This document shows positions 26,919-37,848 of a stretch of DNA of 64,000 nt, piece by piece. This DNA comes from Thermodesulfobacteriota bacterium (GTDB lineage Bacteria > Desulfobacterota_D > UBA1144 > Nemesobacterales > UBA2774). The stretch's first letter is position 1, and the number at the start of each line of letters is the position of its first letter. The stretch covers positions 111,356-175,355 of the forward strand of contig JBFMCV010000003.1 in assembly GCA_040754335.1 (NCBI GenBank), in the 5' to 3' direction. Below the pieces are notes generated by a model. That model saw only the letters and a program-made list of their open reading frames with translations, did no database searches and was not told the origin of the DNA. The position numbers were made by a program, and so were the translations under genes.

Positions 26919-26966
26919 CGTCGGGTGTAGTAATATGAGTTTCTCTAAGTAATGGGAGGCTCTCAA

Positions 26967-27950
26967 ATGTCTACATTGGTTACAGGGGGGAACGGTCTTG
27001 TAGGCTCTCAGATCGTGCGAAAACTGGTAGAGAGAGGGGACAAGGTAAAGGTACTATTGAGAAAGACCAGTAATACGATAAACATCGACAACTTAAATGT
27101 CGAAAGGGTTTACGGAGACGTGACGGATATAGACTCCGTGAGGAAAGCACTCGAGGGCTGCGACACCCTCTACCACGCGGCGGGCATCGTTTCGTTCAAG
27201 CAGGCCGATTATAATAAGATGGAGGAAATCAACGTAAAAGGGACGCAGAACGTATTCAAGGCCGCGATGGAGGCGGGCGTAAAGAAAGCCGTCTATACGA
27301 GCAGCGTCGCGGCTATAGGATTGAAACCCGGCATGGAGCCCGCAACCGAGGAGACTCCTTTTGACCCGGCAGGCACCGACATACAGTATGTGAAATCGAA
27401 ATACTACGCAGAGCAGGAGGCCCTTAAATTTTTCGGAAAAGGCCTTCCGCTCGTAATCGTGAACCCTTCCATAGTCATAGGAGCGGGAGACGTCTACGTC
27501 TCGACCTCAGGGTTTATCCTCTGGTACTGCAAGAGAAAGCTTCCGGGATATACCGACGGGGGCATAAACGTGGTCGACGCCGAAGACGTAGCTATCGGAC
27601 ATCTGCTCGCGGCCGAGAAGGGCAGATTGGGGGAGCGCTACATACTGAGTAACCGCAATATCACTATAAAAGAGCTCTTCGAGGTCCTGGAGAGAGTGAC
27701 GGGAATCCCGCGGCCGAAAATGAAAATACCCTACCCTCTCGCTTACATGGGCGCCTTCATCGTCGAGCGCATACTCGGCATCTCCGCCCCAAACTACGTC
27801 GCCATGGACATAGACTCCGTAAAGGGATCGAAGCACTTCTGGTATTTCGATAATTCGAAGGCGGTGCGGGAGCTCGGGTTCTCGCCGAGGCCGCTAGAAG
27901 AAACCATTCAAAGCACGGTGAATTGGTTCAGGGGGCACGGCTATCTCTGA
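26967..27950 (+). CDS. NAD-dependent epimerase/dehydratase (HpnA / dihydroflavonol reductase-like)
   Basis: This extended short-chain dehydrogenase has the nucleotide loop TGGNGLVGSQIV at the N-terminus, TSSVAA near residue 112 and the active-site YVKSKYYAEQ (YxxxK) near 145. Start ATG 26967 is preferred over 26952 because GGGAGG lies seven bases before it. Relatives include the hopanoid-linked HpnA and the ketosphingosine/ceramide-type reductases such as Caulobacter CerR, so a lipid substrate is possible. That would fit the alpha-oxoamine synthase operon 3 kb downstream, but aroC lies between them. The substrate is unproven. The length is 327 residues. Confidence 0.85.
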   Translation: MSTLVTGGNGLVGSQIVRKLVERGDKVKVLLRKTSNTINIDNLNVERVYGDVTDIDSVRKALEGCDTLYHAAGIVSFKQADYNKMEEINVKGTQNVFKAAMEAGVKKAVYTSSVAAIGLKPGMEPATEETPFDPAGTDIQYVKSKYYAEQEALKFFGKGLPLVIVNPSIVIGAGDVYVSTSGFILWYCKRKLPGYTDGGINVVDAEDVAIGHLLAAEKGRLGERYILSNRNITIKELFEVLERVTGIPRPKMKIPYPLAYMGAFIVERILGISAPNYVAMDIDSVKGSKHFWYFDNSKAVRELGFSPRPLEETIQSTVNWFRGHGYL

Positions 27951-29926: not shown

Positions 29927-32698
29927 ATGGGGATAATAATCAGGGAATCGAAGGACCGAAGAAGGCATGAAAGGGTGCCGGTGAATTTTCATGTCTATTC
30001 CAAAAATTCCGGAAAGATGATCGGGCTCGCAAAAGACCTCTCGCCGAAAGGACTATTCATACATACCGAAGACGAGTACGAGCCGGGAACAAAACTCCTT
30101 CTCGAGTGCGACCTGTCGGGCGCGTTCCCGGTCAAAGCCTACTGTGAAGTAAAGAGGTACGAAACGAACGGTACAGGAGAGCACGGTATCGGGGTCGAAT
30201 TCATAAACATATACGAATCCGATAGGGCGAAACTGGAAAGTTATATCGAGAAGAGCAAACATACTCTCAATTCCGACGACTATTATCTCTCCGACTTCAA
30301 CGACATACCCGACGAAGACCTGTTTAAAAAAGCCGAGGTGTTCTGGCAATACGGCGTGGACATGGCGTCTAAGGGGTATATACGGTACAGAAGACCCCTT
30401 GCCTCGCCCTCCGCGCACAGGGTGATCATCGACGACGATTTCACCGGAAAGAAAAAAGAGATGATCATGATGGGCAGCAACAACTACCTCGGCATCACCG
30501 CGCATCCGAGGGTCATGAAAATAGCCAAGGAGAATATCGACAAATACGGTGCGGGCGCGGGTTCGGTGCCGCTTCTGGCAGGGACGTTCGATATACATAG
30601 GCGGCTCGAGATGAAGCTCGCCGAGCTCAAGGGGGCGGAGGACGCGATAATTTTCCCGAGCGGCTACGTAACCAACCTCGGATGCATACAGGCCCTCGTC
30701 AAGAACGAGGACCTCGCAGTCATAGACAGGCTCGCCCACGCGAGCATCATAGACGGCTGCATGCTGTCCTCTGGGACTTTCAGGACGTTCAAGCATTCGG
30801 ACGTCGACAGCCTCGAGAGCGTATTGAAAAGGAATAAGGACAATTTTAAGGGAAAGATCGTTATCGTCGACGGCGTATACAGCATGGACGGGGACATCGC
30901 GCCTCTGCGACAGATAGCCGAAACGGCGCACAGGTACGGCGCCAAGGTCATGGTGGACGAGGCTCACGCCACGGGGGTCATAGGAGAGAGGGGAAAAGGC
31001 ACTCCGAGTCATTTCAAAATGAAGCCGGGCGAGGTGGATATAGTCATGGGGACGCTCAGCAAATCGCTCGGCGGCATCGGAGGCTTCATCGCCTCGACCA
31101 AAGAGGTGGTGACCTATCTCAGATACTACACGAGGTCGTTCTTCTTCTCGTCGAATTTCCCGCCTTCGGTCGCGGCTTCCGTGCTCGCGGCGATAGAAGT
31201 CATGGAATCCGACAAATCTCTCCATGAAAACCTGTGGAGGAACATCAAGCACATGAAGGAGAGCCTTAAATCCATGGGCTTTAACACCGGACAGACCGAG
31301 TCGGCGATCATCCCTGTAATGATCGGAGACGAGCTGACTCAGAAAAAGATGAACAAGAGGTTCCACGAGGAGGGAATATACGTAAACGCCATTCCCCACC
31401 CCGCCGTGCCCAAGGGTCAGGAGAGGTTCAGGTTCAGCGTCATGGCCACGCACACGCGGGAAGACATCGACAAGACGCTCGAAGTGGTCGAGAAGCTGGG
31501 GAGGGAATTCGGAATAATAGGCAGGCCGGTTTCTCCAGGCGCCCCCGAAAGCGAAAAATACTCGGTGAGAGAAATATCCTCCAGGGAAGATATCGAAAAA
31601 TCGGTCAGGTTCTCATGGAAGGTTTACAAGGACTACCCGGCATGGGTGCCGTACTTCCTGATAAAAGACCACGTCAAGCTCATTTCGAACGATTATTTCT
31701 ACTTCAGAAAGGTTTACGGCAAGAGGTTCGTCGTCGAGGAGAACGGGGAGATAGTAGGCACGGTAAGCGCGTTCATTGACCACTACTATAACCGCTATCA
31801 CGATACGAACGCCGGGTTCCTCGGTTTCTTCGAAGCCCTCCCGGATAAGGAAGAGGCGGTCGGGCTTATGCTGGCGAGAGCCGAGGAGTTTCTTGCAAGT
31901 GAAGGGTGCAGGGAGGTGCTCGGACCCGTGAACGGTATCTTCGGGCTTTTCGGCGGGGGGCTGCTCTCGAGCAACTACGGGAAGATACCTTCGTTCCTCC
32001 AGGTCTACACGCAGCCCTACTACCACGAATATTTCACCGGAGCCGGGTTCGGGCCTGTCAAAAAATTGCTCCACTACACGATAGACCTGAAATCCCCGGA
32101 TAACGTCAAGGCGATAATGAAATACTCACGGGAGTTGGCCCTCCCGGATATTAAGATAAGGCAGATGAACAAGTCCGACTGGGAGAACGAGGTCAGGAGC
32201 GTGGTCAGGATATTCAACAATTCTCTCGCCCAGCTCTGGGGAAACGTCCCGTTCGATCCCGATGAATTCATGGAGATCGCGGACGAGTTCAAGAGCCTTA
32301 TCGCTCCCGAATACTGGCTCATAGCGGAGTCGGGAGGGGAAGCGGTGGGCTTCATAGGCGGGTTCCCGCAGTACGCATCGGTGTTCAGGGGCCTCGACGG
32401 GGAACTCAGGCCCCACAAGCTGGTTACGCTGCCTCTCAAGCTGAGAGGAATAAAGGAAGGCGTTTTAATGATCATGGGACTCCTCGACGAGTACAAGGGA
32501 AAGAGGATAGGCTCGGTCCTCCTAAGCAGGGTCTGCGAGGCGATGATCGGGAACGGCTATGAAAAAGTGGCGGGCACGTGGGTCCTCGAGGACAACCTGG
32601 GCTCGCGGCGCATAGTGGAGAGCCTGGGCGGAAAGGTCGACCTCCACTGGGAGATGTATTCGAAAACCCCGGCGATAAGCGAACAGGCAAATGACTGA
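29927..32698 (+). CDS. PilZ - alpha-oxoamine synthase - GNAT fusion protein
   Basis: This 923-residue protein joins three parts. Residues 5-110 form a PilZ domain with both c-di-GMP motifs, RRHER (12-16) and DLSPKG (37-42). Residues 135-535 form a PLP-dependent alpha-oxoamine synthase related to serine palmitoyltransferase, AONS and CqsA/LqsA: MGSNNYLG (182-189), VDEAH (343-347) and the likely Schiff-base Lys379 in GTLSKS. Residues 550-905 form a two-part GNAT-like acyltransferase with FLGFFEA and GPVNGIFGLF, of the kind to which I believe bacterial ceramide synthases belong. It may make an amino-ketone, or acylate it, for a sphingoid-like lipid or signal, under c-di-GMP control. The start has GAGGGGG upstream and follows a c-di-GMP riboswitch. 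The kinase gene overlaps its end by eight bases. Confidence 0.9.
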   Translation: MGIIIRESKDRRRHERVPVNFHVYSKNSGKMIGLAKDLSPKGLFIHTEDEYEPGTKLLLECDLSGAFPVKAYCEVKRYETNGTGEHGIGVEFINIYESDRAKLESYIEKSKHTLNSDDYYLSDFNDIPDEDLFKKAEVFWQYGVDMASKGYIRYRRPLASPSAHRVIIDDDFTGKKKEMIMMGSNNYLGITAHPRVMKIAKENIDKYGAGAGSVPLLAGTFDIHRRLEMKLAELKGAEDAIIFPSGYVTNLGCIQALVKNEDLAVIDRLAHASIIDGCMLSSGTFRTFKHSDVDSLESVLKRNKDNFKGKIVIVDGVYSMDGDIAPLRQIAETAHRYGAKVMVDEAHATGVIGERGKGTPSHFKMKPGEVDIVMGTLSKSLGGIGGFIASTKEVVTYLRYYTRSFFFSSNFPPSVAASVLAAIEVMESDKSLHENLWRNIKHMKESLKSMGFNTGQTESAIIPVMIGDELTQKKMNKRFHEEGIYVNAIPHPAVPKGQERFRFSVMATHTREDIDKTLEVVEKLGREFGIIGRPVSPGAPESEKYSVREISSREDIEKSVRFSWKVYKDYPAWVPYFLIKDHVKLISNDYFYFRKVYGKRFVVEENGEIVGTVSAFIDHYYNRYHDTNAGFLGFFEALPDKEEAVGLMLARAEEFLASEGCREVLGPVNGIFGLFGGGLLSSNYGKIPSFLQVYTQPYYHEYFTGAGFGPVKKLLHYTIDLKSPDNVKAIMKYSRELALPDIKIRQMNKSDWENEVRSVVRIFNNSLAQLWGNVPFDPDEFMEIADEFKSLIAPEYWLIAESGGEAVGFIGGFPQYASVFRGLDGELRPHKLVTLPLKLRGIKEGVLMIMGLLDEYKGKRIGSVLLSRVCEAMIGNGYEKVAGTWVLEDNLGSRRIVESLGGKVDLHWEMYSKTPAISEQAND

Positions 32699-35264
32699 CA
32701 GACACTACTCCATGTCGGAAGGGAACGGAACGAACATCCAGAAATCGGTATTCAGCATAGTTGCGTTCGTTCTGCTGCTCTTCTGCATAGGGAACCTACT
32801 CCTGGGATTGAACAGGGTGAACAAGCCCTACCCGGGATTTTTCTTCTACAGGAACCTCGTCGTAACCGACATATCGCCCAAGACGATCAACGGAGAGACG
32901 CTCAAGAGGTTCAAGGACAAGATCAGGGAAGTAAACGGCATTGCTGTAAGGACGCCCGAGGAAGTCTTCAGCATTACAGACACATACCCTGTAGGCACCG
33001 GCGTCGAATACACGATAGAAAGAAACAGCGGCACGTTCAGGGTCACGATACCGATCGAGAAACTGACGCTCAAGGAAATGCTCCTCATGTTCGGGATCAT
33101 ATACGTGATAGGCGTCGTGTTCCTCATCATCGGGGTCATGGTCCTTCAGATGAAGCCCGGTCTTAAGGCGAGCAAGGCGTTTTTCCTCTTTTGCGCATCT
33201 ATATGCGTCTGGTTCGTCGGGTCTTTCGACGCGCAGGCCGTCTATCTATTCGACCAGCTGAGCTTCTTTGCCTGGATATTCTGCCCGCTGTTCGGAATAT
33301 ACCTGATGTTTATTTTCCCCTCCGACACCAAGTTGAGGGGAATGACCCACAACCTGGTCTCGATACTGTTTCTGTTTATTTCCGCCATGCTCTTCGTGCT
33401 CCAGTTCATCTTCTTCCACAGGTATGAAGTATGGAAATACATCAATACCGCGAGCTGGATCTACGTGGTCCTGAGCACCATGATATTCCCCATCTCCTCG
33501 TTCGTGACCTACATGAATCCTGCGTCTGCGCTGGAGAAGCAGCGAGCGCAGATAATACTGCTCGGCTGCGTTTTCGGCCTGCTCGCCCCGGCTTCGGTCG
33601 TAGCCTGCATCACGGTCTTTAAAATAAGCCTGCCCTACAACCTGATGGCGCTGCCCGTGATAATATTCCCGGTTTCTATCGCCTACGCCATAGTAAAGCA
33701 CAAGCTCTTCGACATTGACGTCATCATCGAAAAGGCCCTCACGTACGGCCTCCTCACGGGAGCCGTTGGCGGAATATTCGCACTCACCGTGCTCGGGTTC
33801 AACGTCGCATTCGCGAAGTACGGCGGCTGGAAGAACCCCGCTTTCTTCGTGATCCTGAGCGGATTCCTCGTCATAGCGCTCAACCCGCTCAAAAACCGTA
33901 TACAGGACCTTGTGGACCTGACGTTTTTCAGGAAGAAATACGACTACAGGGGGACAGTGGAGGAAGTGAGCTACGCCATGACCTCGCTCCTCAGCCTCGA
34001 GAAGATAATCGACAAGATCATCGAAATCGTGGAGAGCACGATGTTCTCGAGCCCGGTTTCGGTATTCATATACAACCAGGACCTCGGCTCTTACGAGCGG
34101 TATTTTAAAGACGGCGAGGTCAGGAGCTCGCCCGACGCGGCGCTCGAAGAAGACAACGTCCTCATTCAGCAGCTCAATTTCCACGGGAGCGAGATATTCA
34201 AGGAAGACCTCATAGCGGACGAGAGGTACATTCACAACTCTCAAAAGCTAATGCTCGAGTTCGAGAGGTTCAGCGCGTCGCTCATAATTCCGCTCTTTTT
34301 CAAAAAGCAGCTCATCGGGTTCATAGCGCTCGGGGAGAAGAAGTCGGGGCTTTCGTATACCTCGCGCGACGTGAAGCTGCTCAAGCTGCTCGCTAACCAG
34401 AGCGCGATAGCGATCGAGAACGCGCTTGCTTTCAAGCTCGTCGAGGACTACGCGAAGAAGCTCGAAAAAACGAACAAGGAGCTCAAGGACACCCAGGCGC
34501 AGCTCGTGCACGCCGAAAAGATGTCCGCGATCGGGCAGCTCGCTGCGGGTGTCGCCCACGAGATAAGGAACCCGCTCAACATCATCGAAGGCGCAAGGTA
34601 CTACATATCCACATATATGATGGACAAGGAAAACACGGAGGTCGTCGGAGAATATCTCGATTATATAAAGCACGAGATCGACAGGACGAACCGACTGATA
34701 GACAGCCTGCTCAAGTTCTCGAAAGCCGAGCCGCCGTATTTCGAGAGGGTGAACATAAACAGCGTGATCGAGAACGTAGTCATCCTCGTACGGAAGCAGC
34801 TCTCTGACAACAGGATAAATCTCACGCTCAAGCTCGACGGGAACCTGCCGCAGATAATGGCCGATCCGAACCAGCTCTGGCAGGTATTCATCAATATCAT
34901 ATTGAATGCCGTTCAGGCGATGCCGAAGGGCGGGGATTTCACTATTGAGACCACGACCAGCTGGGACGAATTCGCGAGCGGGAACTCGAACCACGTCTAC
35001 ATACACTTCAGGGACACGGGCGTGGGGATAGACAGGGAAGACATAACGAAGATATTCGACCCGTTCTTCACGAAAAAGGATATGGGGACCGGGCTCGGTC
35101 TCTCGATAGCGTATAAGATAATCGAAAAGCACAAAGGCAGGATAATAGTGGAAAGCGAAAAGGGCGTCGGTACGACGTTCACGATTGAACTTCCATCAAA
35201 TAACCATAATATTACTGCGGGAGAGGCAGATGAACAACTCGAAGAAACGGGTGCTGGTAGTTGA
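32691..35264 (+). CDS. Membrane sensor histidine kinase with PDZ-like and GAF domains
   Basis: The 857-residue kinase begins with a membrane helix (17-40). A PDZ-like periplasmic segment follows (about 58-123, VNGIAVRTPEEVF), then about seven more helices (131-400) and a cytoplasmic GAF domain (about 420-585). The transmitter has phospho-acceptor His623 in VAHEIRNPLN and an ATPase domain (DTGVGID, MGTGLGLS). The start overlaps the stop of the fusion gene (ATGACTGA), so the two are translationally coupled; Met8 is an alternative start. The cue is unknown, perhaps a lipid or ketone made by the upstream enzyme. The REC domain of the next protein is the likely partner. Confidence 0.92.
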   Translation: MTDRHYSMSEGNGTNIQKSVFSIVAFVLLLFCIGNLLLGLNRVNKPYPGFFFYRNLVVTDISPKTINGETLKRFKDKIREVNGIAVRTPEEVFSITDTYPVGTGVEYTIERNSGTFRVTIPIEKLTLKEMLLMFGIIYVIGVVFLIIGVMVLQMKPGLKASKAFFLFCASICVWFVGSFDAQAVYLFDQLSFFAWIFCPLFGIYLMFIFPSDTKLRGMTHNLVSILFLFISAMLFVLQFIFFHRYEVWKYINTASWIYVVLSTMIFPISSFVTYMNPASALEKQRAQIILLGCVFGLLAPASVVACITVFKISLPYNLMALPVIIFPVSIAYAIVKHKLFDIDVIIEKALTYGLLTGAVGGIFALTVLGFNVAFAKYGGWKNPAFFVILSGFLVIALNPLKNRIQDLVDLTFFRKKYDYRGTVEEVSYAMTSLLSLEKIIDKIIEIVESTMFSSPVSVFIYNQDLGSYERYFKDGEVRSSPDAALEEDNVLIQQLNFHGSEIFKEDLIADERYIHNSQKLMLEFERFSASLIIPLFFKKQLIGFIALGEKKSGLSYTSRDVKLLKLLANQSAIAIENALAFKLVEDYAKKLEKTNKELKDTQAQLVHAEKMSAIGQLAAGVAHEIRNPLNIIEGARYYISTYMMDKENTEVVGEYLDYIKHEIDRTNRLIDSLLKFSKAEPPYFERVNINSVIENVVILVRKQLSDNRINLTLKLDGNLPQIMADPNQLWQVFINIILNAVQAMPKGGDFTIETTTSWDEFASGNSNHVYIHFRDTGVGIDREDITKIFDPFFTKKDMGTGLGLSIAYKIIEKHKGRIIVESEKGVGTTFTIELPSNNHNITAGEADEQLEETGAGS

Positions 35265-37146
35265 CGACGAGCAGCTCATATTAAAGATCATATCCGACAT
35301 ACTGACCAAGGAAGGTTACGAAGTCGTAATCGCCAACAACTGCGAGAAGGCGGCCGATTACCTGAGGTCATCGAACTTTAACGTCGTGCTCTCGGACATA
35401 AAAATGCCAGTTAAGAGCGGCATCGACCTCCTCGAGGAAATCAAGAAGAAAGACCCGAACATTCCGGTAATACTGATGACGGGATTCGCCTCGCTTGAAA
35501 CAGCCGTAGAGGCGGTCCAGAACGGAGCCTTCGACTACCTGATCAAGCCGCTCGATTACGGGAAGCTGAGGAGCGTCATCGAGCACGCCGCCGACAGGTA
35601 CGAGCTCTACAGGGAGAACACCCGTCTCCTCAGCGATCTCAAGGAGCTGAACACCAATCTCGAACTGAAGGTCCAGGAAAGGAACAGACAGCTCGAGAAC
35701 ACGCTCAACAGCACGATCGAGAGCATCATAACGACCGACAGGGACCTCGTCATAGAAACCACGAACCCGAAGACCTCCGAGATATTCGGCAGGAACTGTG
35801 TGGGTGAAAAACTGAGCTCGTTATTCCAGGGAATCAATTTCGACACCATAGTACCCAAAATATTGAGCGACCCGGCGTACTCGACGAAACACGAAGTGAG
35901 ACACGACAGCAAGTTCCTCGAAGTGACGCTCTCGCCGCTTATAGACTTCGAGACTAGGGAGATTTTCGGCGTGATAGCAGCGACTGAGGATATAACCGAG
36001 AAGAAGAAGCTCGAAGCGCAGCTCATACACTCGGCCAAGATGTCGGGCGTGGGGCAGCTCGCGGCCGGGGTCGCGCACGAATTCAACAACATCCTCTCGG
36101 GAATCATAGGGTACACGAGCCTCGCGCTCACGCGGCAGGACCTCGACAGCGTCAGGAAAGACCTCAAGGTCATAGAGAAAGCCTCCGACAGGGCCGTCGA
36201 GATAGTGAACAAGCTCCTCTCCTTCTCGAGACAGAAGGGAGAGAAGTTCCAGGTCGCCCAGATAGAGAGCATCATAGACGACGCGCTGGGGCTCGTGGAG
36301 CACACGTTCGAGACGGAAGGAATAAGGATACTGAGGAGCTACGAGAAGGTCCCGGCCATAAGGATGAACCTGGGAGAGATACAGCAGGTGTTCCTCAACC
36401 TCGCCATAAACTCGAAACACGCCATGCCCAATGGCGGCGCTATAGCCATAAGCACGAAGCTCGCAGGGAATTACGTTAGGATAGACTTTTCGGATACGGG
36501 CGTTGGCATTCCGCCCGAGAACCTGCCCAGGATATTCGAGCCCTTCTTCACCACGAAGCTGAGCGAAGGCGCAAAAACGGGAACCGGCCTCGGCCTCTCC
36601 GTCATATACGCGATCATCGAGAGGCACGGCGGGCGGATCGAAGTCTCGAGCGAGGTCAACAAAGGGACTACCTTCACGATCCACCTCCCGAATATCCAGA
36701 CCGTCGCGAAAGCCCCGGAACCGGAGCAGGCGAAGAAGAGCCAGAACGGCAAGGTAATCGAGCTCAGGAGAAAGGGGAACGTGCTGATAATCGACGACGA
36801 GGAGTTCATAAGGGACATAGTGAGCGAATGCCTTTCGAGCACCGGGCACAACGTAATGACCGCCGAGAGCGCGGAGGAAGCGATAGAGCTTATAAAAAAG
36901 AACCATTTCGACATCACGTTCCTCGACTTCTCCCTGCCTAATAAAAACGGCCTCGATCTTCTGAGAGAGATAAAGCTCATCGACCCCAGCTCGACCGTGG
37001 TCATCATAAGCTCAAGGCCCGGAGAGCAGCTCCCGGACGAGCTCTCGGACGAAGGCGCTTACAACATCATAAAGAAACCTTTCTCCGTGGACCAGATACA
37101 AAACGCAGTATCCAGGGTGCTTGGAGCGGAGGCCGTGAGCAGATAA
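35230..37146 (+). CDS. Hybrid regulator REC-PAS-HisKA-HATPase-REC
   Basis: The start is ATG 35230, preceded by GGGAGAGG, which overlaps the previous gene by 35 bases; the longer upstream frame is not used. The 638 residues comprise a first receiver (acceptor Asp56, Lys106), a coiled linker (about 125-160), a PAS domain (about 162-255), a kinase core with His283 in VAHEFNNILSG, an ATPase domain (DTGVGIPPEN, GTGLGLS), and a second receiver with Asp566. No DNA-binding output domain exists, so the signal probably passes on to another regulator or stays in a relay with the upstream kinase. Confidence 0.92.
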   Translation: MNNSKKRVLVVDDEQLILKIISDILTKEGYEVVIANNCEKAADYLRSSNFNVVLSDIKMPVKSGIDLLEEIKKKDPNIPVILMTGFASLETAVEAVQNGAFDYLIKPLDYGKLRSVIEHAADRYELYRENTRLLSDLKELNTNLELKVQERNRQLENTLNSTIESIITTDRDLVIETTNPKTSEIFGRNCVGEKLSSLFQGINFDTIVPKILSDPAYSTKHEVRHDSKFLEVTLSPLIDFETREIFGVIAATEDITEKKKLEAQLIHSAKMSGVGQLAAGVAHEFNNILSGIIGYTSLALTRQDLDSVRKDLKVIEKASDRAVEIVNKLLSFSRQKGEKFQVAQIESIIDDALGLVEHTFETEGIRILRSYEKVPAIRMNLGEIQQVFLNLAINSKHAMPNGGAIAISTKLAGNYVRIDFSDTGVGIPPENLPRIFEPFFTTKLSEGAKTGTGLGLSVIYAIIERHGGRIEVSSEVNKGTTFTIHLPNIQTVAKAPEPEQAKKSQNGKVIELRRKGNVLIIDDEEFIRDIVSECLSSTGHNVMTAESAEEAIELIKKNHFDITFLDFSLPNKNGLDLLREIKLIDPSSTVVIISSRPGEQLPDELSDEGAYNIIKKPFSVDQIQNAVSRVLGAEAVSR

Positions 37147-37160
37147 AATAACACCCGGAC

Positions 37161-37523
37161 ATGGAAGAGCTTTCCACCCACAGCTTCAGAATCTTCGTCA
37201 ACGAAAAAGAGATTTATTCGGGCAGCCTCGAGGAAGTGCCGGAAAGGTTCAGGGCGCGCATGATACGCGACCTTGCCGAGTGGGCGGACTCTCTCGGCAA
37301 GAGGGGCCTCAACGAGCTCATATACTCCCATCTCGCCTGGTATGAAGAGAAGGGCATGCACTGTGCGGAATGCGGGACTTGGGACACGGGAGGGGGCTCG
37401 GGGGAATGTGCGGAATGCGGGAGCAAGCTCGGGGAGCGGTACATATACGAGCGGGACAAAGGGCTCGATATGATCATTACGTGCGTGGGAATGATATCGA
37501 AAGTGCAGGTTTCAAAAATATAA
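37161..37523 (+). CDS. Small protein with zinc-ribbon-like CxxC pair, 120 aa
   Basis: The N-terminal half is helical and charged. The C-terminal half has two CAEC pairs (Cys68/71 and Cys83/86) separated by a Gly-rich loop, which suggests a zinc-binding knuckle. I do not recognise the family. It follows the hybrid kinase by 14 bases on the same strand and may belong to the same transcript. Function unknown. Confidence 0.7.
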   Translation: MEELSTHSFRIFVNEKEIYSGSLEEVPERFRARMIRDLAEWADSLGKRGLNELIYSHLAWYEEKGMHCAECGTWDTGGGSGECAECGSKLGERYIYERDKGLDMIITCVGMISKVQVSKI

Positions 37524-37542: not shown

Positions 37543-37848
37543 ATGAAGCTAACAGTCAAGGGTCAGATATTTCCAAAGGTCTGGGAGATCGCGGAGAGCG
37601 TAAGGAAGCTGAGGGACGACAGGAAGCCCGTGAACATCGGAGCGGGCACGGTGGGCTTTCCGGTCTACGAAGTGGATCTGCCGGATGACACGAGAAAGGA
37701 GGGTCTTTATTTCGTGACTCCACAGGGGATAAAGCTCTATTTTTACCCGGGCGACCAGTACCAGATAGCATATCTGATCTCGGAGATAGACACCGACCCG
37801 CTGAGGGAGAAGCATTTTAAAGAGGCGGCAAAGAACGCACTGTCTTGA
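37543..37848 (+). CDS. Uncharacterised small protein, 101 aa
   Basis: No family is recognised. The product is soluble, mixed alpha/beta, with short beta strands (VNIGAGTVGFPVYEVDL, GLYFVTPQGIKLYFY) and a C-terminal helix. GAGAGGTCGGAG precedes the ATG. It lies 19 bases after the CxxC-pair gene, in the same direction, so the two may be a pair. Confidence 0.6.
   Translation: MKLTVKGQIFPKVWEIAESVRKLRDDRKPVNIGAGTVGFPVYEVDLPDDTRKEGLYFVTPQGIKLYFYPGDQYQIAYLISEIDTDPLREKHFKEAAKNALS

Follow-up and report, generated by a model that had tools for sequence, protein, structure and literature searches.

A PilZ–alpha-oxoamine synthase–acyltransferase fusion protein encoded beside a conserved kinase pair in Candidatus Dadabacteria

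PilZ effectors such as BcsA, Alg44 and YcgR carry a PilZ domain, with the motifs RxxxR and [D/N]xSxxG, on an output domain. Most PilZ outputs studied to date belong to polysaccharide synthases, flagellar brakes or adaptors, and some PilZ domains do not bind c-di-GMP. Among alpha-oxoamine synthases (AOSs), Spt acts together with bCerS and CerR in Caulobacter and Sphingomonas, and operons of this AOS-GNAT-SDR make-up occur in many phyla. PigH, of prodigiosin synthesis, is described as an enzyme with two carrier domains that acts on L-serine (PMC3870968). In the CqsA/CqsS and LqsA/LqsS systems, the AOS and a multi-TM kinase share one cluster (PMC3376566).

The window, by which we mean the whole stretch of 64,000 nucleotides analysed, encodes a PilZ domain, an AOS and a tandem GNAT on one chain of 923 amino acids, just as the sequence-only reading had claimed. 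The open reading frame starts with ATG and is uninterrupted, while stops interrupt the reverse strand in the same register. Pfam matches to PilZ (residues 10-108), Aminotran_1_2 (178-520) and Acetyltransf_1 (780-901) each lie above their cut-offs. Residue numbers are those of the 923-residue protein throughout. The parts of the fusion are as follows.

29927..32698, + strand: PilZ-AOS-GNAT fusion protein, 923 aa (ORF list, Pfam; conserved in relatives)
29954..30250, + strand: PilZ domain, residues 10-108, with RxxxR (R12-R16) and DLSPKG motifs (PF07238; motifs; model strands)
30251..30358, + strand: linker SDDYYLSDFNDIPDEDLFKKA..., also found between carrier protein and AOS in PigH (alignment; PigH matches begin at query residue 2/425)
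30359..31519, + strand: alpha-oxoamine synthase domain, residues 145-531 (PF00155; NCBIfam TIGR01825, 416 bits; structure match to SPT 3a2b)
31061..31063, + strand: codon of Lys379, the predicted PLP Schiff-base lysine in GTLSK (alignment)
31547..32665, + strand: tandem GNAT of the bCerS/YghO-like family, residues 541-913 (profile, alignment, structure model)

Independent genomes show the same fusion at identities of 92, 86, 77 and 74%, down to 48-49%, ruling out both chance and an assembly join as its origin. Near relatives at the locus are named Candidatus Dadabacteria (MFCJ01000073, CADEFK010000039, DEIM01000046).

The PilZ domain of the fusion scores 53.4 bits against a Pfam cut-off of 22.5, and those of eight orthologues score 25-56 bits. 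Both c-di-GMP motifs are intact, as RRHER (RxxxR) and DLSPKG ([D/N]xSxxG). The R, R, S and G motif columns are invariant in a 13-row alignment (A2), almost every row opens the second motif with D or N, and the two motifs are retained in orthologues with a complete N terminus. The beta barrel that had been anticipated within residues 1-110 appears in the AF2 model as six strands (21-25, 31-37, 43-46, 56-63, 67-80 and 86-95) followed by a helix (97-110), at a low to moderate pLDDT of about 45-76. This PilZ domain is likely to bind c-di-GMP; that such binding changes the activity of the attached AOS seems to us fairly probable.

The AOS part has an Aminotran_1_2 score of 194.8 bits, and its AF2 model matches the serine palmitoyltransferase (SPT) structure 3a2b with a Z score of 51.9 across 390 residues. 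In the Sphingobacterium SPT, the PLP and substrate residues are Asn52, Tyr54, Gly80-Ser81, His138, Asp210, His213, Thr241, Ser243 and Lys244 (PMC10196870), and alignment places counterparts of these in the fusion. Its active site keeps the Asn and Tyr of SNNY, AGS, His271, DEAH, TLSK379 and a C-terminal Arg. Lys379 (GTLSK379) aligns with Lys244 (GTFSK), in agreement with its earlier naming as the PLP-binding residue. The AGS motif of SPT, present in the fusion, is variable among orthologues. The domain very probably makes an alpha-aminoketone.

Family assignment places this AOS apart from SPT and from CqsA/LqsA. It falls under all three cut-offs of the NCBIfam SPT equivalogs (384.7 against 640, 350.6 against 500 and 296.8 against 670 bits), whereas the Sphingomonas Spt in the same test scores 833 bits against the cut-off of 670. 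For the CqsA/LqsA family NF005526 it reaches 208.8 bits of a required 428, and it is only 23-25% identical to CqsA structures. The SPTs of sphingolipid operons form a supported clade (100/99 and 100/100) that excludes the AOS of the fusion in two trees, the second made after removal of E. coli BioF and the B. glumae AOS for their long branches. The Dadabacteria PilZ-AOS sequences likewise form one clade (100/99 or 100/97), within which the branching order of the AOS is incompletely resolved.

By trees and plasmid matches, the nearest characterised neighbours are PigH proteins on Methylocystis, Thioclava and Pseudoalteromonas plasmids, in clusters whose gene content, along with one PigD annotation, leads us to read them as prodigiosin-type. 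This sister position could mean that the fusion is a natural-product AOS of PigH descent, in which PilZ replaced the carrier domains and acyl-ACP comes from a small pathway encoded elsewhere. The PigH relatives do have N-terminal carrier domains at the position where the fusion has PilZ, and alignment finds in both the linker D..DF....DLF.KA and the longer N-terminal hairpin VIFDE.TG..RE. However, the PigH branch is long (1.1), the Dadabacteria locus is without a PKS or ACP gene, and G174, the closest AOS without PilZ, lies in a different setting, all of which makes such a descent very unlikely in our judgement. The neighbours of G174 and of G357, the other nearest AOS without PilZ, are lipid- or natural-product-like, with no kinase seen among them. 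On the Methylocystis iwaonis plasmid (L163), a seemingly complete prodigiosin-type cluster adjoins a DevC-type ABC exporter.

The C-terminal part was modelled alone as a confident tandem GNAT (pLDDT 86), which upholds the two-part GNAT described in the sequence-only reading. Structure matches are to 7q3a (Z 24.4), glucosamine N-acetyltransferase (22), mycothiol synthase (21) and N-myristoyltransferases (16), and Acetyltransf_1 (780-901) scores 47.6 bits. The patterns GPVNGIFGLF and FLGFFEA, from which kinship with bacterial ceramide synthase had been suspected, are both present, at residues 666 and 631 respectively. As a reference for this enzyme we used a GNAT on a Sphingomonas plasmid (L133) that has a curated SPT (833 bits), an ACP and an NAD(P)H-binding protein nearby, and that was assigned as CerS by a position matching that of the Caulobacter CerS (PMC11324152). 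The fused GNAT aligns with it over its full length (27.9% identity, 383 aa, 150 bits, E 7e-46). The suspected kinship is thus borne out as common family membership, but residues that never vary among the stand-alone enzymes have been lost. Changes at invariant or nearly invariant positions are R612T, N770L, R846V/A, D815Q and N817A, with the NDE segment replaced by GLFG, and because of them the fused GNAT may use other substrates or be inactive. The fused GNATs form a deep clade of their own, separated from all stand-alone members by a stem 2.0 changes per site long, and as an ordinary GNAT the C-terminal half has the higher score (51.4 versus 23.8 and 15 bits).

A GNAT of this family next to an AOS is a familiar pattern. 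The GNAT profile picked out 80 loci; 62 of these have an AOS nearby, the Dadabacteria fusions accounting for four, and 53 have an SDR, and loci with all three have the arrangement of Spt, bCerS and CerR. These adjacent trios match the known sphingolipid core genes (PMC11087976, PMC11334938), and the fusion might be a one-chain ceramide synthase, with the AOS as SPT and the GNAT as bCerS making 3-keto-ceramide under c-di-GMP control. Homology of the GNAT to CerS, the SPT-like active site with its AGS motif and the order proposed in PMC11087976, with acylation before reduction, would all fit. Against this stand the SPT cut-offs and the SPT clade, neither of which takes in this AOS, the divergence of the fused GNAT, and the lack of a linked CerR, and we consider a ceramide synthase unlikely. 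An HpnA-like SDR (26952-27950) was weighed as a dedicated CerR and rejected, since most genomes of the order have it, whether or not they carry PilZ-AOS. Acylation of an amine by the fused GNAT is likely from its family, while ceramide synthesis proper is not established; that the amine acylated is the product of the AOS could prove right or wrong with about equal ease.

Two further observations concern this GNAT family. E. coli YghO belongs to the same family as CerS (L135), and in Pseudomonas veronii yghO adjoins a cluster of an AOS, a small protein and an SDR-like gene, a neighbourhood that suggests YghO to be a ceramide-type N-acyltransferase. In some Desulfuromonadales-like genomes, a second, diverged GNAT paralogue follows the Spt-CerS pair at a distance of about 1 kb (L060 10156-11274, L080 10268-11386, L102 2965-4098).

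The AOS or its fused GNAT was found at the locus in 18 of the 43 genomes of the order (G000-G042), nine in the window's own family and nine in others. PilZ itself was read in 14 of these carriers, as a contig end cuts the gene in G003, G007, G010 and G026. The form with GNAT extends to another family (G022, G034, G026), and the fused GNATs of both families make up one clade (100/100), so one fusion event with later losses explains the pattern most simply. In six loci (G018, G021, G025, G028, G029, G032), PilZ-AOS and the kinases occur without GNAT, as a protein of about 540 amino acids, and a profile search of these six genomes found no stand-alone GNAT; only G017 has remnants. Condensation and N-acylation on one chain, as first proposed, is possible, but it is weakened by an AOS outside the SPT clade, by the residues lost from the GNAT and by the six loci that do without it. 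These same points mean that the GNAT is accessory and that 'ceramide' should not be taken for granted. A search of 386 genomes found no AOS in the other long-frame PilZ matches (G089, G302, G364, G234, G343), and in the long frames at other AOS matches (G161, G297, G131, G117, G176, G269, G267, G065) no PilZ was seen by eye; several of the latter are ordinary Spt-CerS-SDR or BioF settings.

Two kinases, absent from the sequence-only reading, are the constant partners of the AOS, and the genes of the locus overlap or lie 8-40 bases apart.

32691..35264, + strand: membrane sensor histidine kinase with N-terminal multi-TM region, GAF, HisKA and HATPase_c (Pfam, hydropathy; co-occurs with PilZ-AOS)
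35230..37146, + strand: REC-PAS-HisKA-HATPase-REC hybrid kinase (Pfam; conserved beside the fusion)
37161..37523, + strand: small Cys-rich protein, conserved at the locus (conservation)
37543..37848, + strand: small protein, conserved at the locus (conservation)

The sensor kinase gene shares its first 8 bases with the end of the fusion gene. The hybrid kinase is listed as an ORF from TTG 35185, and an ATG at 35230 has GGGAGAGG upstream. Both small proteins follow the hybrid kinase in most carriers, and one of them has CxxC pairs and a weak zinc-ribbon match.

The sensor region of the kinase is present in all 18 carriers, next to the AOS. Among the 25 relatives without the AOS it is absent or represented by distant copies only, at 27-38% identity, including one of 28% in G030 and, at the syntenic position in G017, a fragment of 38%. 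Shared ancestry inflates these counts, which stand for linkage and not for proof. G017 is the one exception to strict pairing: a divergent kinase follows aroC, without PilZ-AOS between them. Together with broken GNAT remnants (C56; L205 9010-9513), this is perhaps a decayed locus. A PDZ-like first loop in the sensor kinase was a guess for which Pfam gave no support.

We tentatively suggest that the kinase pair senses the product of the AOS or its effect, although we hold this to be somewhat less probable than its opposite. It could do so in the manner of the cqs and lqs systems, where the aminoketone would be a dedicated ligand of the kinase and not a structural lipid, with c-di-GMP gating the output of signal. 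The kinase is directly downstream of the AOS in carriers, AOS and kinases are constant where the GNAT and other accessory genes are dispensable, and the pairing of AOS and multi-TM kinase has its precedent in the two described clusters. Yet the AOS is no CqsA/LqsA orthologue by its score and has low identity to CqsA structures, Pfam matches nothing in the sensor region itself, homologues of this region elsewhere carry other outputs, and no target regulator was identified; a dedicated signal of this kind is thus possible but rather unlikely.

Other genes adjoin PilZ-AOS in particular loci. Directly upstream in GNAT-less loci is a porin-like outer membrane protein (weak Alginate_exp, TIGR04551; L040 7689-9488, L041 10617-12548, L043 10160-11995, L044 6664-8523), a possible exporter. 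An OleD-like reductase (235 bits, under the cut-off; L041 7154-8173) and a methyltransferase (L042 9899-10675) are also found next to it, in two genomes, perhaps for tailoring of the aminoketone.

The window's genome encodes two PilZ proteins and six with GGDEF, at least one GGDEF protein is encoded in all 18 AOS-carrying genomes, and PilZ-AOS is missing from every relative that lacks GGDEF. Genes for REC-HD-GYP and CZB-GGDEF proteins lie upstream of the fusion in G022, and the G028 locus lies between a GAF-PAS-GGDEF-EAL gene and a REC-HD-GYP gene. GGDEF neighbours in 2 of 14 loci are only weakly above chance (0.34 expected, P ~0.05, a rough estimate for GGDEF genes alone).

A second PilZ-AOS protein, of 573 amino acids, is encoded in an unrelated lineage (G293). 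Its PilZ domain scores 29.7 bits and keeps both motifs, as RTLPR and NISATG. To either side of it lie GAF-HD-GYP proteins (HD_5 matches of 130-138 bits), one with a Pfam HisKA_7TM region, in the order GAF-HD-GYP, PilZ-AOS, 7TM-GAF-HD-GYP (L209 4440-10390). The sensor parts of these proteins are distantly related to the Dadabacteria kinase (~25% identity, E ~1e-30). In the tree, this PilZ-AOS is outside the Dadabacteria PilZ clade, with an attachment support of 85/34 that leaves its exact place unsure. That PilZ-AOS occurs in two settings, each time beside GAF-type sensors, is the strongest reason to think the pairing meaningful. Gating by c-di-GMP, the central idea of the earlier reading, gains comparative support from the two motifs, from GGDEF in all carriers and from turnover genes by the G022, G028 and G293 loci; its ceramide idea holds at the family level only.

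The reading we prefer is a c-di-GMP-gated synthase of an alpha-aminoketone, possibly N-acylated, that serves as lipid or signal and works with the kinase pair; we regard it as evenly poised between right and wrong. In this scheme PilZ would bind c-di-GMP and the linker would pass control onto the AOS dimer, which would condense an acyl thioester, either acyl-CoA or acyl-ACP, and an amino acid into an alpha-aminoketone. The tandem GNAT fused to it in this genome might then act in cis on the amine, by N-acylation or some other acylation, to yield an amide resembling a keto-ceramide. What results would be an amino-lipid or lipid-like signal, made in one regulatory unit with the membrane-GAF kinase and the REC-HK-REC hybrid, and the kinases would respond to this product, or else to the membrane's state, and feed back. 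The fuller picture, of a c-di-GMP-controlled amino-lipid-signal synthase with its own kinase, in which PilZ and AOS were fused at least twice beside GAF-type sensors and N-acylation in cis was present in some lineages, is doubtful as a whole. Since hydropathy shows no transmembrane-like stretch in the protein, which exists in a form of about 540 amino acids and offers obvious motif mutants, the gating idea can be tested with one purified protein. If true, c-di-GMP would set the rate of amino-lipid or signal synthesis directly, through an enzyme-level switch that links a second messenger to a chemical message or a membrane lipid.

Each part of this arrangement is known; as far as could be searched, the PilZ-AOS architecture and its second occurrence are new, and our literature search found no paper linking PilZ with an alpha-oxoamine synthase or with sphingolipid synthesis. 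Like Spt, bCerS and CerR, the fusion has the AOS fold and active site, a homologous GNAT and the two activities side by side. Unlike them, it has these on one chain behind PilZ, with the AOS outside the SPT clade and the GNAT strongly diverged, at a locus with a kinase pair and no linked CerR. It resembles PigH, among its nearest characterised AOS relatives, in the linker, the N-terminal hairpin and the possession of an N-terminal extension; PigH has carrier-protein domains and a PKS cluster, whereas the fusion has PilZ and the prodigiosin cluster genes are absent at its locus. With CqsA/CqsS and LqsA/LqsS it has in common the gene make-up of an AOS, a multi-TM sensor histidine kinase and receiver domains, but those systems are without PilZ or GNAT and the AOS of the fusion is of another branch. 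Compared with BcsA, Alg44 and YcgR, in which PilZ with the same motifs is likewise set on an output domain, the output domain here is a PLP-dependent condensing enzyme.
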